Shown: in pieces, positions 45,418 through 56,819 of the stretch
Position numbering within the stretch: position 1 is the stretch's first letter
Layout: the number at the start of each line of letters is the position of its first letter
Assembly: GCA_030525245.1 (NCBI GenBank)
Contig: JAUNFB010000004.1
Location: 1 to 64,000, forward strand
Direction of reading: 5' to 3'
Origin: Erysipelotrichia bacterium
GTDB lineage: Bacteria; Bacillota_I; Bacilli_A; Erysipelotrichales; Erysipelotrichaceae
Length of the DNA stretch: 64,000 nucleotides
The notes under the pieces: model-generated
Seen by the model: the letters and a program-made list of their open reading frames with translations, nothing else
Databases searched by the model: none
Told to the model about the DNA's origin: nothing
Position numbers and translations under genes: made by a program

Positions 45418-46572
45418 TTATCCGGCAAAATTTTTAAGAGTATCTACCAATTCTTGTTTTGTTTGGTGATCCAAGACGTCCAAGAATGTTTCGTAAGTTA
45501 ATAACATTTCGTTTATCGGTGTAACATATGGTGAGTAACCGTTGGAATAACAAACCAAAATAGTATTGTGATCATTTACCAAACTTAAATAGTAAGAAAA
45601 CAACTCATTAGGAGCAAAGATGATTTTGACATGTTTTAAATCTAATTTTGTCAGGATCATCTCTTTTTGTAATACTCTTTGATGATTTTGAATTTTTTGA
45701 CGCATTATTTTTCCAAAACCGATAGTTTCCATTTCTCTTGGTGACAGATTTTTTGGTAAAGCCGATAAATCTATTTCATTCAGATCAATATTTACCGGAA
45801 TTACTTTTTCAGTTAATGTGAACGAGTTTAGCGGATAGTGAGTTGCAGGCTGATTTTTTAATTGTTCTATTTTGTTGAATAACTTAGTTCCCAACTCTTT
45901 TACATCATCGTAGGTTTGACCTTTACGGGTAAAACGGCAGGAAACATCACCGGCAGCACCTTGCCAGAAAGTATTGAAACATTTATTTTCTTCATTAAGC
46001 AAATTTAAACAATAACCGACATATTCCGCAGAGAAGAAATCGGTGTTATCCGCCGAAAGAATCGTTGGGTGGCAATTATAATTAATGATATTTATTATTT
46101 CTTGATCATTATCAAATATTTCTAGGAGATTCAGAATTACTAAGGCTTTGTGATTGCTTATACGGCTTGTTCCGACTTCTTCGTATGGGACACTGCGATA
46201 GGTATAAGAAAGATTACCGTCGTTGAAATGTAATTGTTTTATTGCCTGAACTATTTGACCGATCAATTGTTGATGATAAGTTTTGTCGGTAGTATCGCCG
46301 CTGTAGTGCGTATGAGTAGCACTGAGAACCAAATAAATGTCTTTATCAAAGGCATTTTTTACTTGTTTTTTTATTTCTTCAGTGTAATCGTAAGTAAAGC
46401 CCAATACATCACAGCTGATATTAATGAAAATATTGTTTTCAGTTTCTAAAGCAAAAATATGGGCTGACAAGTCATCATTTACTTTGGAAACAGGGTTTAC
46501 TTGTTGAAGATGACCGGCTTGTTTAACCGGATGTTGCGGATTGATGATTATTTTTTCGGTAGCATAACGCAT
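45418..46572 (-). CDS. Neutral/alkaline ceramidase-like hydrolase domain protein
   Basis: The 384-residue protein resembles the N-terminal domain of neutral ceramidases: an opening strand with proline-rich segment (IIINPQHPVKQAGH), a DDLSAHIFALE segment, a SCDVLGF turn, SATHTHYSGD (zinc-binding His pair) and a later NYNCHPTILS with another metal His and WQGAAGDVS. Such proteins are zinc amidases. There is no signal peptide, so it would act in the cytosol, unlike secreted ceramidases; many bacterial members are of unknown substrate. It is transcribed alone with a GAAGGGAG ribosome site. Confidence 0.7.
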   Translation of the reverse strand: MRYATEKIIINPQHPVKQAGHLQQVNPVSKVNDDLSAHIFALETENNIFINISCDVLGFTYDYTEEIKKQVKNAFDKDIYLVLSATHTHYSGDTTDKTYHQQLIGQIVQAIKQLHFNDGNLSYTYRSVPYEEVGTSRISNHKALVILNLLEIFDNDQEIINIINYNCHPTILSADNTDFFSAEYVGYCLNLLNEENKCFNTFWQGAAGDVSCRFTRKGQTYDDVKELGTKLFNKIEQLKNQPATHYPLNSFTLTEKVIPVNIDLNEIDLSALPKNLSPREMETIGFGKIMRQKIQNHQRVLQKEMILTKLDLKHVKIIFAPNELFSYYLSLVNDHNTILVCYSNGYSPYVTPINEMLLTYETFLDVLDHQTKQELVDTLKNFAG

Positions 46573-50361: not shown

Positions 50362-51105
50362 TCATTTCGGTTGAAAATCAATGTTTGCTTTTCGGGCTTG
50401 TTGTTTTTGATAGCACCTTCTAATATTGTAGTGTTTTCCGTCTTTAACAAAATTAGCTCCGGTTTGATGAAAAGTGAAGGCGATATTCTGCTTTATGCAT
50501 TGTGATCTTATATTTAATATCCAATCATAATAGCAGATACGGGCTTTTCCCCCGGATTCTCCACCGACAGATACTTCTTGTATTTTAGATGAGAGATATT
50601 TTGTTAAATCAATTTGTTCTAAGATAGGAGCGGCGATTATTAAGCGATATTTTATCGGTGCTTGCAGGAAAATGGGTAAACGGTAATCGGCGGCTTGTTG
50701 ATTTTCTACCGTGCAGCCAATAGCAACATTTTCATAACCGTCTTGCCAGTCATCGGGAATGCATTGATAAAAGCGATCAATTCTTTTGGTGAAGAAATAA
50801 AAATAACAATCCTGGCGTTGTTTAATCATTTTCCAACAATCATCGCGCCACAAATCCGCGTCATTAAGAAAGAAATCGGATGTAAAGCAAGTTGGTATTA
50901 CCTGTTTACTTTCTATTTTATAGTCACCATTTCTTTTCTTTTTTATAGGCAAATTAAAGTCTGCCGTTTTGCGGCAGATATTAGATGAGATGGCGGAACC
51001 GTACATTTCATCCTGTCGATAGACATAACAGTTCCGACATCCTTCGCTGATTTTTGTACAACCATGCCAGGGATTCCAAGCGATTTCTTTTTTTTCGTTA
51101 TTCAT
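50362..51105 (-). CDS. Gp37/Gp68-like (DUF5131) protein
   Basis: The 247-residue protein begins with the family signature WNPWHGCTKISEGCRNCY (about 11-28), which holds three cysteines suited to a metal or Fe-S cluster, and has later cluster-free strands (YFFTKRID, GESGG). Phage Gp37/Gp68 homologues and chromosomal copies are widespread and structurally related to radical-SAM barrels, but the reaction is not established. No phage gene is nearby. It stands alone. Confidence 0.8.
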   Translation of the reverse strand: MNNEKKEIAWNPWHGCTKISEGCRNCYVYRQDEMYGSAISSNICRKTADFNLPIKKKRNGDYKIESKQVIPTCFTSDFFLNDADLWRDDCWKMIKQRQDCYFYFFTKRIDRFYQCIPDDWQDGYENVAIGCTVENQQAADYRLPIFLQAPIKYRLIIAAPILEQIDLTKYLSSKIQEVSVGGESGGKARICYYDWILNIRSQCIKQNIAFTFHQTGANFVKDGKHYNIRRCYQKQQARKANIDFQPK

Positions 51106-51308: not shown

Positions 51309-51338
51309 ATAAAAATCAAGGAACTTTGCCTTGATTTT
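51309..51338 (-). terminator. Terminator after the MFS-GH2 gene
   Basis: AAAATCAAGG/CCTTGATTTT stem with a 7-nt loop, overlapping the stop codon on the minus strand. Confidence 0.85.
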
Positions 51339-54330
51339 ATAAACTCAATTGATCATTGATTTTCTTCATGAATTTTTTATCAAATTTGACTACTTTGCGA
51401 TCATAAGTTACTAAGCCGTTTACTTCATCTTCAACATCAGATAGTTGGGTGTAGATAGTGGCGCTTAATCCATCCTTTATTAATGGAATTATTTGTTCGG
51501 TGTGTAACTGTAAGAATGCACTTTGTAAATCAATTTGATTGTTGAACAATTTGTATCCGAAAGCGGCATCGTTATAACTGTGGTTTTTGATCATTTGAGA
51601 ATAACCGCCGTATTCTGTTAATGCCCATACTCTGTCATCTTTATTAAATTTGATGTCTTGGAAGTAAATATGCTTGCTGCATAGATCGCCGCCTTTTTGG
51701 TCGTGCCAACCGCTGGCGTGATCGATAATTCGGCTGTTATCCAATGATTTAATCATTTTAGTTACATTTAAGGCATCAAATTGTCCCCAACCTTCATTGA
51801 ACGGTACCCACAAGGATAGAGAGACGCAATTATATAATAATTCGACAGTTTCTTTTGTTTCTTCGAGATACATATCGCGAGACTGTTGAGATTTACGGGC
51901 AAATAAATTGTAATGGTGGTCATTAAATTCAATTCCGACATATGGTAAGGCGGCAATAGTCAAGAAAGAATATTTTCCTCCGCCGTTGACCATATCTTGC
52001 CATACCAACATGCCCATTTTGTCGCATAGGTAGTAGAAATAAAGAGGTTCGATTTTAATATGCTTCCGAATGGTATTGAATCCCATATCTTTTAACATTT
52101 GGATATCATCCTGCATTTGTTGATAACTAGCCGGAGTATAGATACCATCCGAATAATAGCCTTGATCTAATACGCCTTTGTGAAAATAAGGTTTATTGTT
52201 TAAAAAGAGTCTTTTCTTTCCAGCTTTATCGAATCCGACAGAGAATTTGCGCATTCCGAAGTAGGATTTTATTTCATCTTGACCATTAGTAATAATTAAA
52301 TCATATAAAAATGGATCTTCCGGTGACCAACTGTGCATGTTTTCAATATGGATACTGCTGCTTCCGGCAACATCATCTTTGAATATAATGTTGTTTTTTT
52401 CTTTGATTGTAACAGTATAACTGCTGCTGTCACCATAAATGATTAAATTGAGCAATTGACTGTCATAATTGATATTGATTTTTAAAGAGCGGATGTGTTC
52501 TTTTGGCATTGATTCCAACCACACGGTTTGCCAAATACCACTGGTCGGTGTATACCAGATGCCGCCTCTTTTGCTTGATTGTTTCCCGCGGGAATAATAT
52601 GATTTGTCGGTATAATCAACAACTTTAACAATTAATTCGTTTTCATCCTGCAAATAATCGGTTATATCAACATCAAACGGCAAATAGCCGCCGATATGTT
52701 CTTTAATCATTTTGCCGTTGAGATAGACTTGGCAAATTTGGTCAACAGCACCAAAGTGCAAATAAACAAGACCTTCATTGAAATTTTGCGGTAAAATGAA
52801 TGTTTTTTTGTACCAGAGGATATCCTGAGCCGTTACAGTTTTATTAACTTGAGAAAGTATGCTTTCCGGAGAAAACGGCACAACAATATCACCGTCATAT
52901 TCTTGCGGAAGTTCTTCGCTTCGGTTAATCGCATATTGCCAAAGGCCGTTTAAGTTTATAAAGGATTTTCTTTGCATTTGCGGACGCGGATATTCCGGTA
53001 GGACGTTATTAACATCTAATTTTTCTCCGTAAGATGTCAATAAGTTATTGTGCTTGGTTTTCTTTTGCTTTTCTGCTTGATTATAAAAATGATAAGGAAT
53101 AAATATCAAGGCAGCACAAATTGCTGCTGCTAACCATATATTGGCACTTGGAACTTGTTTTATTACTCCTAATTCTTCATAAGTCATACCGCTGTTTTTG
53201 ATTACCGCCGCTCCGATAAACGGACCGATAATCATTGGCAACATTACCGTAAAAATCATTCTCAAGCCTTGAACAGAACCGGCACGGTTATTGGGCGTGT
53301 TATTACGGATTGAACCGTTGACAAGAGAAGTTACCAGCAGGTTACCACTCATCATCACAATACCGGATAAGATTACAGCTAAAGGTTTTCGACTGAAATA
53401 CATCATCAACAAACCGCCTGTCAATAAAATAATTGCCGGTATATAAAATTTCGATGCCCCTATTTTATCAATGACTGATCCGATAAGGACGGAAATAAGA
53501 GAAGAAACAATCAAAACAATTCCTAATATTAAGGCATAATTACTTATTTGTAAGTAAGCCTGAATATAGATGATCATATAAGGCATGAATATCTGCGTGG
53601 AAACGGAAAAAACTGCCGATGTAAGTAAAGCAAGATATAATTCTTTATTTTCACGGATGTTTTTGAGTTTGAATCCGTAAGTTAAATTGGTTAAAAAAGA
53701 GTTTTTGTTTTTAACTTTTACTTCGTCTTTTAGGATGAAGATTCCTATAATGCCGCCTAAAGATACGGCTGTACCGATGATGATAAAGAAAATATCCCAA
53801 TGACCTTTTTGAGTCAGCGGATCTAATAATCCGAATATCACCAACATCGCAATTAATGGTAAGGCTGCAATGACACTTTCAAACTTGCTGCGGCTACTGT
53901 TGTCCACTGTTTCGGTTAGCCAAGCATTGAAACAAGCATCGTTAGCTGTGGAACCGAAGAAGGTCATTATGCAGTCCATTAGAACAGCTAATTGCCCGCC
54001 TAAAAGTGCTGCTTGTTTATAAGGAAATAAAGCGGAAATATTATCGGTATTTAAGAAGGCAAATACGATGACCGATAAACCCCAAATAAAATAGCCTAAT
54101 ACGATAAAGATCTTTCTTTTGCCCAATTTGTCGGATAAACTGCCCATTAACATGGTTGTTAATGTTGCGGTTATCGCACTTAAAGCAACCATTGAAGCTA
54201 TGACATTAACATCTCCGCTTAAAGTATTATAAACAAAGACATTGAAATACATATTTTCTACAGTCCAAGCCAATTGCCCTAAAAAGCCGAATAACAATAA
54301 GCTTATCCAAATACGTGATTCTTTTTTCAT
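51337..54330 (-). CDS. MFS transporter fused to a family 2 glycoside hydrolase
   Basis: One uninterrupted reading frame of 997 residues. Residues 1-415 are a 12-helix MFS transporter of the sugar-cation symporter type (GSLSDKLGKRK between helices 2 and 3). Residues 416-448 are a polar linker. Residues 449-997 are a GH2 enzyme: sugar-binding domain (INLNGLWQY onward), Ig-like domain, then TIM barrel with the predicted acid/base E846 (PFNEGWG) and nucleophile E906 (ALTEYGG). Since 12 helices leave the C-terminus inside, the hydrolase should be cytosolic and act on the imported beta-glycoside. It starts 2 nt after ricT. The sugar, galactoside or glucuronide, is uncertain. Confidence 0.9.
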   Translation of the reverse strand: MKKESRIWISLLLFGFLGQLAWTVENMYFNVFVYNTLSGDVNVIASMVALSAITATLTTMLMGSLSDKLGKRKIFIVLGYFIWGLSVIVFAFLNTDNISALFPYKQAALLGGQLAVLMDCIMTFFGSTANDACFNAWLTETVDNSSRSKFESVIAALPLIAMLVIFGLLDPLTQKGHWDIFFIIIGTAVSLGGIIGIFILKDEVKVKNKNSFLTNLTYGFKLKNIRENKELYLALLTSAVFSVSTQIFMPYMIIYIQAYLQISNYALILGIVLIVSSLISVLIGSVIDKIGASKFYIPAIILLTGGLLMMYFSRKPLAVILSGIVMMSGNLLVTSLVNGSIRNNTPNNRAGSVQGLRMIFTVMLPMIIGPFIGAAVIKNSGMTYEELGVIKQVPSANIWLAAAICAALIFIPYHFYNQAEKQKKTKHNNLLTSYGEKLDVNNVLPEYPRPQMQRKSFINLNGLWQYAINRSEELPQEYDGDIVVPFSPESILSQVNKTVTAQDILWYKKTFILPQNFNEGLVYLHFGAVDQICQVYLNGKMIKEHIGGYLPFDVDITDYLQDENELIVKVVDYTDKSYYSRGKQSSKRGGIWYTPTSGIWQTVWLESMPKEHIRSLKININYDSQLLNLIIYGDSSSYTVTIKEKNNIIFKDDVAGSSSIHIENMHSWSPEDPFLYDLIITNGQDEIKSYFGMRKFSVGFDKAGKKRLFLNNKPYFHKGVLDQGYYSDGIYTPASYQQMQDDIQMLKDMGFNTIRKHIKIEPLYFYYLCDKMGMLVWQDMVNGGGKYSFLTIAALPYVGIEFNDHHYNLFARKSQQSRDMYLEETKETVELLYNCVSLSLWVPFNEGWGQFDALNVTKMIKSLDNSRIIDHASGWHDQKGGDLCSKHIYFQDIKFNKDDRVWALTEYGGYSQMIKNHSYNDAAFGYKLFNNQIDLQSAFLQLHTEQIIPLIKDGLSATIYTQLSDVEDEVNGLVTYDRKVVKFDKKFMKKINDQLSL

Positions 54331-54332
54331 AA

Positions 54333-55202
54333 TTACTCCTTGATATCGACTTCTTCTTTTGTCTCCGGCAAGATATTTTTCAATTCATCTACGGTTAAAT
54401 CCAAAGCATTTTCTTTATTGGAAATGCGGACGGTGTTGTTTAAGATGTTCATTGAAGTAATTCTGAATTTTTCGTTGTTATAGTAGACAATTGTATTGAG
54501 TTTAGGTAATCCGGCTCTTAATTCTTTGTAAGTATCATCTTCATATTTTAGGCAGCACATCAGCTTACCGCATTGCCCGGATAATTTAGCCGTGTTTAAG
54601 GCTAACAATTGGTTTTTAGCCATATTAATAGATACAATATCAAAATCATCTAAGAAACGGGAACAACAGGTTTCCATACCGCAACAGCCCAAGCCACCGA
54701 TAATTTTAGCTTTATCGCGCGGACCTATTTGACGTAATTCGATTCGACATTTGAAAGTTGCGGCTAATAGTTTTAGCAATTCTCGGAAATCGACTCTTTC
54801 ATCGGCTACATAAGAGAAAATAACTTTGGTTCGATCTAAAGTATATTCTGCCGATATTAAGTTCATGTCTAATTGAACATCTTCGATGCATTTTCGACAT
54901 TTGCGCATCAGTTCCGGTATTTCGTCAATATTGGATTGATGTTGGCGTAAATCGTTGATTGAGGCCTTGCGGATAATCGGTTTTAAAGCGATAGAAATAT
55001 TATGTTCTTTGCTGTCGCGAATGTCGCTGATTAATTCTCCCAGTTCAATACCGCGAACAGTTTCTACCACAACTTTGTCGCCGTATTTGAGAGTTTGATC
55101 GTTACAGCCGAAAGTGTAAGCTTTTTTGGAACCTTTAAATTTAACCGACACGCAATATTTGAATTCGATCGGTTGCTCCTGTTGATTTATTTCTTCATTC
55201 AT
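54333..55202 (-). CDS. ricT: PSP1-domain protein, RicT/YaaT-like
   Basis: The 289-residue protein has the PSP1 domain, with GLGCCGMETCCSRFL and SGQCGKLMCCLKYE cysteine motifs (about 170-218) typical of RicT/YaaT, which in Bacillus works with YlbF and YmcA in RNase Y-dependent mRNA maturation. It overlaps holB by 4 nt (ATGA) in the usual tmk-holB-ricT order and has AGGAGG before the ATG. Confidence 0.92.
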   Translation of the reverse strand: MNEEINQQEQPIEFKYCVSVKFKGSKKAYTFGCNDQTLKYGDKVVVETVRGIELGELISDIRDSKEHNISIALKPIIRKASINDLRQHQSNIDEIPELMRKCRKCIEDVQLDMNLISAEYTLDRTKVIFSYVADERVDFRELLKLLAATFKCRIELRQIGPRDKAKIIGGLGCCGMETCCSRFLDDFDIVSINMAKNQLLALNTAKLSGQCGKLMCCLKYEDDTYKELRAGLPKLNTIVYYNNEKFRITSMNILNNTVRISNKENALDLTVDELKNILPETKEEVDIKE

Positions 55203-56200
55203 ATTTTTACCTCCTGTTTTAGTTTATATAGTAATTGGTCTATACATAAAAGACCATTTGCGGCTTTAGATAAATTATCTTTGCATTGGCTGAAAGTTAT
55301 AAGAAAATTCTTGCAGTTGAAATTGTTGCTTTGCCGGGCTTTTCGTAAAAGACTGTCATATTCTTCATCCTTACTACGATATTCGGTCAAACAATCCTGG
55401 GCAAAGATTAAACCGATTTCCAAAAAGAAACCGATAGAGCTTTTTAAGGACTTATCATCGCCTTTTTTTTGTTTGGAAAAATTATCTTGCAAGAATATAA
55501 TTGCTTCGGCATTATTGTCGAGATAGTCATTCATAAATTCCAAAAAGGCATTTAAAGCAAAATCAAAATATTTATTTTGTTTGTATTGTTGAATATCTTG
55601 TTGAGAACTGACAAATTTACTTATTAAGTGGCAATTTAACTCTCTTAGATTTTGTTGCAAAGCATATTGATAAAAATCTTGTTTGCTTAATGGGTGAAAA
55701 TTAATGTTTTGGCAGCGTGAAACAATGGTTGATAAGACATTTTCCGGTTGTTCGGTCAAGAATATGCCGGTTAAATTATTTGACGGTTCTTCGATGAATT
55801 TCAATAAGCTGTTTGCGGCTTTTCCGGTCATATTTTCACAATTGTTGATGATAAATATTTTTTTTCCGGCTGCTTCTAAGGCTGTTTTGTCGAAACGCTG
55901 TTTGATATCTTCGATGTTTTGCAGTTTAATATTTTTTTCTTGGCAGTCAATATAGATTAAATCGGCGTAATTGTTTTCGGATACTCTAAGACAATCGGAG
56001 CATTTTTCACAGGCAAAACCGTTTTTTTTGTTTTGACAAACTAAACTTTGAGCTAAAAGAAAAGCTGTCTGTTTCTTTCCTGAACCTTTCGGCCCGGAAA
56101 ACAGGTAACTGTGTGATAGGCGGTTTTGTTTTAAAGCATTTTGTAATATTTGATAAACTACCGGTTGCTGTTTTTTCAAAGTGTCACTGTACATATTCAT
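55199..56200 (-). CDS. holB: DNA polymerase III, delta' subunit
   Basis: The 333-residue clamp-loader subunit has a modified P-loop (GPKGSGKKQTAF, about 41-52), a four-cysteine zinc module (CQNKKNGFACEKCSDC, about 54-69) and an SRCQNI sensor-like motif. It overlaps tmk by 17 nt and ricT by 4 nt, so the operon is tightly coupled. Confidence 0.92.
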   Translation of the reverse strand: MNMYSDTLKKQQPVVYQILQNALKQNRLSHSYLFSGPKGSGKKQTAFLLAQSLVCQNKKNGFACEKCSDCLRVSENNYADLIYIDCQEKNIKLQNIEDIKQRFDKTALEAAGKKIFIINNCENMTGKAANSLLKFIEEPSNNLTGIFLTEQPENVLSTIVSRCQNINFHPLSKQDFYQYALQQNLRELNCHLISKFVSSQQDIQQYKQNKYFDFALNAFLEFMNDYLDNNAEAIIFLQDNFSKQKKGDDKSLKSSIGFFLEIGLIFAQDCLTEYRSKDEEYDSLLRKARQSNNFNCKNFLITFSQCKDNLSKAANGLLCIDQLLYKLKQEVKI

Positions 56201-56819
56201 TAATTTTTTCTTTGATAAGTTTGTAAGTATTTTCGGCTACTTCTTCTTTGCTTAAAGAGGCATCGATGACTTTTATTCTTTTCGGATATTTTTGACAGAG
56301 TATTTCATACCCTTGTTGAACCTTTTTATGAAAATCAATACTTTCCGCATCTAAGCGATCCAAGTTTTCTCTTCCGGAAATTCTTCTTAATCCCTCTTGG
56401 GCATCAATAGAGTAGTAAACAGTCATATCCGGCAGATGATTTTCAATGGCGAATTCATTGATTTTAAATATTTCATCCATACCGATTCCTCGACCGTTAC
56501 CTTGATAAGCTAATGAAGAATCGATAAAACGATCGCAGATAACAATTTTTCCAGCCGTTAGAGCGGGCAAAATTATCTCTGTTAAATGTTGTCTTCTTCC
56601 GGCAGCATAAAGCAATGCTTCACAACGCTTATCCATGGCGGTATTTTTAACATCTAAAATGACATTGCGAATTTGTTCGGCAATTTCACTGCCACCCGGT
56701 TCACGGGTATAAACTACATCATATCCCTCTTGTTGCAGACGGGAAATTACAGTTTTACAGGCAGTGGTTTTTCCCGAACCGTCACATCCTTCGATAGTTA
56801 AAAATAAACCGTTTTTCAT
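56184..56819 (-). CDS. tmk: Thymidylate kinase
   Basis: The 211-residue enzyme phosphorylates dTMP to dTDP. P-loop EGCDGSGKTTACK (8-20), the DRFIDSSLAYQG motif (about 95-106), the TREPGGSE dTMP-binding loop and the lid region (RRISGREN) are present. First gene of the tmk-holB-ricT-MFS/GH2 operon. Confidence 0.96.
   Translation of the reverse strand: MKNGLFLTIEGCDGSGKTTACKTVISRLQQEGYDVVYTREPGGSEIAEQIRNVILDVKNTAMDKRCEALLYAAGRRQHLTEIILPALTAGKIVICDRFIDSSLAYQGNGRGIGMDEIFKINEFAIENHLPDMTVYYSIDAQEGLRRISGRENLDRLDAESIDFHKKVQQGYEILCQKYPKRIKVIDASLSKEEVAENTYKLIKEKINEYVQ

Follow-up and report, generated by a model that had tools for sequence, protein, structure and literature searches.

The window analyzed here, a 64,000-nucleotide stretch of a contig from an Erysipelotrichia bacterium, carries on its minus strand a gene that joins an MFS transporter to a glycoside hydrolase family 2 (GH2) enzyme in one frame. 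The frame runs from an ATG at 54330 to its stop and encodes a protein of 997 amino acids, P0001 (Table 1). Its ATG has an AAGGAG Shine-Dalgarno sequence of its own that overlaps the end of ricT, making the fusion the last gene of the tmk-holB-ricT row. Neither direct neighbor of the fusion within the window is a carbohydrate gene. The gene directly downstream encodes a DUF5131 protein (50362-51105, minus strand), and a similar neighbor is not clustered at the fusions of sister loci. At 45418-46572 on the same strand lies a frame of 384 aa for which Pfam gave no match at E 0.001 and which by eye we take to be like neutral ceramidase-like proteins (HTHYSGDTT, GAAGDVS).

Table 1. Features of the fused gene and its surroundings, in window coordinates
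Feature	Position	Strand	Basis or remark
Fused MFS transporter-GH2 hydrolase gene	51337..54330	-	997 aa; ORF, Pfam, homologues, AlphaFold2
MFS half, residues 1-415, about 12 transmembrane helices	53086..54330	-	Pfam MFS_1, hydropathy and charge, AlphaFold2 helices
Short basic junction YNQAEKQKKTKHN, residues 416-428	53047..53085	-	Comparison with fused and split homologues
GH2 half, residues 429-997, furanosidase-type (CAZy GH2 group III-like)	51340..53046	-	Pfam, structure and motif comparison
N845-E846 codons, NE motif, predicted general acid/base (= E464 of Streptomyces ORF1110)	51793..51798	-	Alignment
E906 codon (TEYGG), predicted nucleophile	51613..51615	-	Invariant in 56/56 rows
T961 codon, taken as the Thr replacing the -1 subsite Trp in GH2 group III	51448..51450	-	Invariant in 55/55 rows
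AAGGAG Shine-Dalgarno, just 5' of the fusion ATG, overlapping the ricT end	54336..54341	-	Sequence
tmk-holB-ricT gene row, upstream of the fusion	54333..56819	-	Fusion directly after ricT, as in sister genomes

Pfam assigned residues 12 to 370 to MFS_1 (E 3e-34; 118.9 bits against a cutoff of 33.4), which makes the first half a member of the MFS. Residues E25 and D119 of this half are invariant. Hydropathy and loop charge gave this half 12 helices in an N-in/C-in arrangement with positively charged inner loops, and from this topology the GH2 enzyme is predicted to face the cytosol. The second half is a GH2 protein with jelly-roll, sandwich, and TIM-barrel domains (Pfam GH2 N, sandwich, and TIM-barrel matches across residues 494 to 899) and two catalytic glutamates, E846 in the NE motif and E906 in TEYGG; both are invariant across all 56 aligned GH2 rows, as is N845. 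An AlphaFold2 model of the fusion, made with 93 homologous rows, had a mean pLDDT of 91.7 and a pTM of 0.81 and shows a bundle of transmembrane helices with the GH2 fold after it. In this model the final transmembrane helix stops at about residue 425, with the GH2 fold starting some 10 to 35 residues farther on. The original prediction of a single-gene MFS-GH2 fusion, with an unbroken 997-residue frame, 12 helices, both catalytic glutamates, and a predicted place for the enzyme on the cytosolic side, is upheld by the ORF, Pfam, hydropathy, and AlphaFold2 results; that prediction gave no strand.

Distribution and origin of the fusion

The unbroken fusion is present in 7 of 7 genomes of the genus, that of the window included, and the other six copies are 66 to 68% identical to it. 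Six further genomes of the family also have it (G077, G103, and G170 of genus g24, G021 of g16, and G016 and G071 of g11), giving 13 of 316 genomes and 4 of 80 sampled genera across the order. Fusions also occur in two clostridial loci, L019 and L020. The gene is preceded by ricT throughout the genus and in L015, L016, and L018; L069 (G021) has another context. A stop or frameshift between residues 415 and 450, named in advance as what would overturn the fusion, was looked for, and none was found. Since there is no such break and the same unbroken frame recurs in independent assemblies, an assembly or frameshift error is excluded. Both halves gave NG86 dN/dS values of 0.02 to 0.14 in every comparison that could be computed; for the L017/L065 pair the values were 0.042 (MFS) and 0.058 (GH2) at a dS of about 0.75. 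Strong purifying selection acts on the MFS and GH2 halves alike. The L019 fusion is flanked (L019:4238-10482) by genes for a GH123-domain protein and a SASA-type carbohydrate esterase, which suggests that its glycan and the one of the window's clade differ.

In 28 other loci the MFS and GH2 genes are separate, in the same order and on the same strand, with the transporter first. The expectation that the two parts are usually encoded separately holds, with the refinement that the separate genes often overlap and that fusion took place on more than one occasion. In 26 of the 28 split pairs the GH2 gene has a possible start codon located before the transporter stop ends, the overlap for the likely GH2 start is 1 to 32 bases, and most overlapping pairs have a Shine-Dalgarno-like sequence inside the transporter tail; this layout is probably that of translationally coupled genes. 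In the fused proteins, the basic tail of the transporter runs straight into the GH2 enzyme's own N terminus with no extra linker. Internal reinitiation yielding a free GH2 enzyme was considered and rejected for the window, where no internal start with a Shine-Dalgarno sequence was found at the junction of the fusion. Weak internal-start candidates occur in L021, in L069, and, farther in, in L019.

Trees of the GH2 half and of the MFS half each place the fused rows in three clades among split rows. When the fused rows were forced into one clade, the AU test rejected the constraint for both halves (P = 2.8e-42 for GH2 and 3.7e-49 for MFS), loss by splitting being outside the model of the test. 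A single ancient fusion is rejected on these terms, so the fusion arose independently at least twice. Treating L019/L020 and L067/L068 as one fusion event gave a P value of 0.057 in the MFS tree, and by these trees the number of events is at least two and probably three. GH2 relatives without an adjoining MFS gene exist in the family, as do MFS relatives without GH2. Since relatives have the two as a fusion or as overlapping neighbors, the transporter and the enzyme almost certainly work together.

The joining itself could still be functionally neutral, an accident that brought only equal dosage, and this would be compatible with any reading of the substrate. With an overlap as short as that of the split relatives, one small indel suffices to fuse the genes, and many lineages still have the split pair. 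Against this stand at least two, and probably three, independent fusions that have been long kept under strong purifying selection, and the window fusion has no internal start left at its junction. Since the genes already overlapped, we regard the neutral reading as worth serious consideration, though doubtful.

Class of the hydrolase and its sugar context

In structural alignments, the closest solved structures to the GH2 half were 7SF2 (38% identity) and then 9J6M and 9J6N (34%; TM 0.89 to 0.91 on the target), followed by 7XYR at 27% and, among the entries listed, by glucuronidases and others at 19% or less. Structure 7SF2 was named a beta-galactosidase by its depositors, and we found no characterization of it; among enzymes of known function, the nearest solved relative is the Streptomyces beta-D-galactofuranosidase (34%). 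In a 2025 subdivision of GH2, 9J6M falls in GH2_18 and 7XYR in GH2_19; the two together form group III, which is recognized by a threonine in place of the -1 subsite tryptophan and for which beta-D-galactofuranosidase and alpha-L-arabinofuranosidase activities are known (PMC12243196). After 7SF2, the group III structures 9J6M, 9J6N, and 7XYR rank before all GUS and LacZ entries, and a threonine, T961, is present in 55 of 55 rows. We take T961 to be the group III threonine from the spacing of its motif to the following aspartate, compared with GUS and LacZ sequences. By its motifs and relatives, the GH2 half belongs with furanosidase-type, group III-like enzymes, apart from LacZ and GUS.

The enzyme behind 9J6M and 9J6N, ORF1110 of Streptomyces sp. 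JHA19, cleaves beta-D-galactofuranosides (beta-D-Galf) and cleaved neither an arabinofuranoside nor the pyranosides tested, beta-D-galactopyranosides included (PMC4560423). A beta-D-galactofuranoside is the predicted substrate of the GH2 half. The published nucleophile of ORF1110 is E573 (PMC11084152), a residue that seems not to coincide with the conserved GEFGG glutamate aligned to E906; by alignment, the glutamate of GEFGG seems to be the nucleophile equivalent in ORF1110.

Galactose genes recur beside the relatives. Galactokinase adjoins the split pairs of L023, L032, L038, L039, and L058, aldose 1-epimerase adjoins L032 and L039, GH36 alpha-galactosidase adjoins L023 and L038, and UDP-galactopyranose mutase adjoins L027 and L058; the GH2-only locus L073 has an aldose 1-epimerase and a sugar ABC transporter beside it. 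Pathway genes of the genus were checked by family search in its seven genomes. A galactokinase signature was found in 7 of 7, belonging to a protein that scores under the galactokinase equivalog cutoffs; this divergent galactokinase-like gene (L087:7375-8652 and genus genomes) occurs in all seven. The same family search found no GalT (PF01087) in any of the seven, so that galactose use, if any, would take another route. It likewise found UDP-galactopyranose mutase in 0 of 7, which rules out that enzyme as the bacteria's own source of Galf; any Galf would therefore be of outside origin.

The same tethered importer-hydrolase could instead carry an alpha-L-arabinofuranosidase that frees arabinose from imported arabino-oligosaccharides. 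Such enzymes are found within GH2 group III (PMC12243196), and genes of the GH127 beta-L-arabinofuranosidase type lie directly upstream of the same MFS in L045 (4011-7215) and L046 (4118-8282; partial, then GH2), from which the MFS group may serve several furanoside hydrolases. This identity for the enzyme is nonetheless rather improbable, given that the L-arabinose isomerase AraA was found in 0 of 7 genus genomes by family search, that the closest characterized structure is Galf specific and did not cleave an arabinofuranoside (PMC4560423), and that the recurrent neighbors are galactose genes.

Direction of transport and remaining alternatives

No NCBIfam model matched the MFS half above its cutoff, so that no named MFS sugar importer family can be given, and PDB profile matches were only weak; the nearest of the weak profile and structure matches are of efflux type (LmrP, 3wdo, and Bcr/CflA). 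On sequence grounds, the half is a member of an MFS group without a name. Import is the presumed direction, but since efflux pumps are among these weak matches, an exporter was kept as an alternative. The cytosolic GH2 enzyme would then take the sugar off a glycoside that is internal or enters passively, after which the MFS half would expel the product, the whole acting as a detoxification unit. We give this little credence: the efflux-type matches, though the weakly nearest ones, are far under their family cutoffs and may reflect the general MFS fold only, and sugar-catabolic genes adjoin several of the split homologues.

An importer with a beta-galactosidase or beta-glucuronidase for aryl glycosides, as the original prediction had it, is very improbable and its substrates are not sustained: the common GH2 fold and catalytic residues and the weak NCBIfam GUS and LacZ matches to the GH2 half, far under their cutoffs, are set against a group III threonine in place of the -1 tryptophan, a structural identity of at most 19% to solved glucuronidases versus 34 to 38% to the nearest relatives, the inactivity of ORF1110 on beta-D-galactopyranosides, the absence of the glucuronate isomerase UxaC from 7 of 7 genus genomes by family search, and the absence of the glucuronidase NxK motif from its expected place, which by alignment of the following DRK motif reads E969-V970-N971 (N-x-K is confined to residues 538 and 711).

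Discussion

We somewhat favor the reading that the fusion is a membrane-tethered uptake-and-cleavage protein, a cytosolic beta-galactofuranosidase fixed to its importer. The MFS half would import a small beta-D-galactofuranosyl oligosaccharide or glycoside, and the GH2 half, attached through a stretch of about 13 residues, most of them basic, to the cytosolic end of helix 12, would remove the terminal galactofuranose. Released galactofuranose would convert to galactopyranose and then be phosphorylated by the galactokinase-like enzyme. The single gene would have come about when an ancestral MFS-GH2 pair, overlapping and probably under translational coupling, was joined in frame, at least two times independently. 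What the data show is the conserved frame under purifying selection, the conserved catalytic residues, the overlapping split relatives, the repeated fusion, and the furanosidase-type fold and motif; the cytosolic location, the galactofuranoside substrate, the import direction, and any kinetic benefit of tethering or channeling are inferred from these and from the topology. The direct cleavage of the incoming glycoside envisaged in the original prediction is plausible. More tentatively, the exit mouth of the MFS may be coupled to the GH2 active site, with cleavage during entry by true channeling or hydrolysis-driven uptake, an arrangement that would have arisen out of the overlapping pair two or three times. 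If such coupling is true, these bacteria would have a dedicated intracellular galactofuranose route. If the substrate prediction is true, the MFS is a candidate for galactofuranoside import and the GH2 enzyme one for a cytosolic galactofuranosidase.

Glycoside uptake and first hydrolysis are normally separate steps performed by separate proteins. A search of open-licence literature turned up no paper describing a natural MFS-glycosidase fusion. Both parts are of known kinds, and their joining, probably as an importer-tethered furanosidase-type GH2 enzyme, is new as far as this search goes. With a repeatedly evolved fusion and unfused overlapping relatives as natural controls, the benefit of an enzyme at the importer mouth is directly testable.

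The nearest systems for comparison are the split MFS-GH2 pairs of Bacillota and Izemoplasmatales (L022, L023, L042, and L061), whose halves are homologous (about 50 to 54% identity) and stand in the same order; they are encoded by two genes, which in most cases overlap where they meet, and not by one frame. ORF1110 (GH2_18) shares with the GH2 half its fold, the NE acid/base glutamate, and the YT[Q/E] and DRxVVK motifs, whereas it has a signal peptide and no described transporter and the enzyme of the fusion is predicted to be cytosolic and is joined to an MFS. The lactose permease LacS carries a C-terminal cytosolic IIA domain that is regulatory. Like LacS, the fusion would be a sugar permease with a C-terminal cytosolic domain; unlike the regulatory domain of LacS, that of the fusion is a complete glycoside hydrolase.
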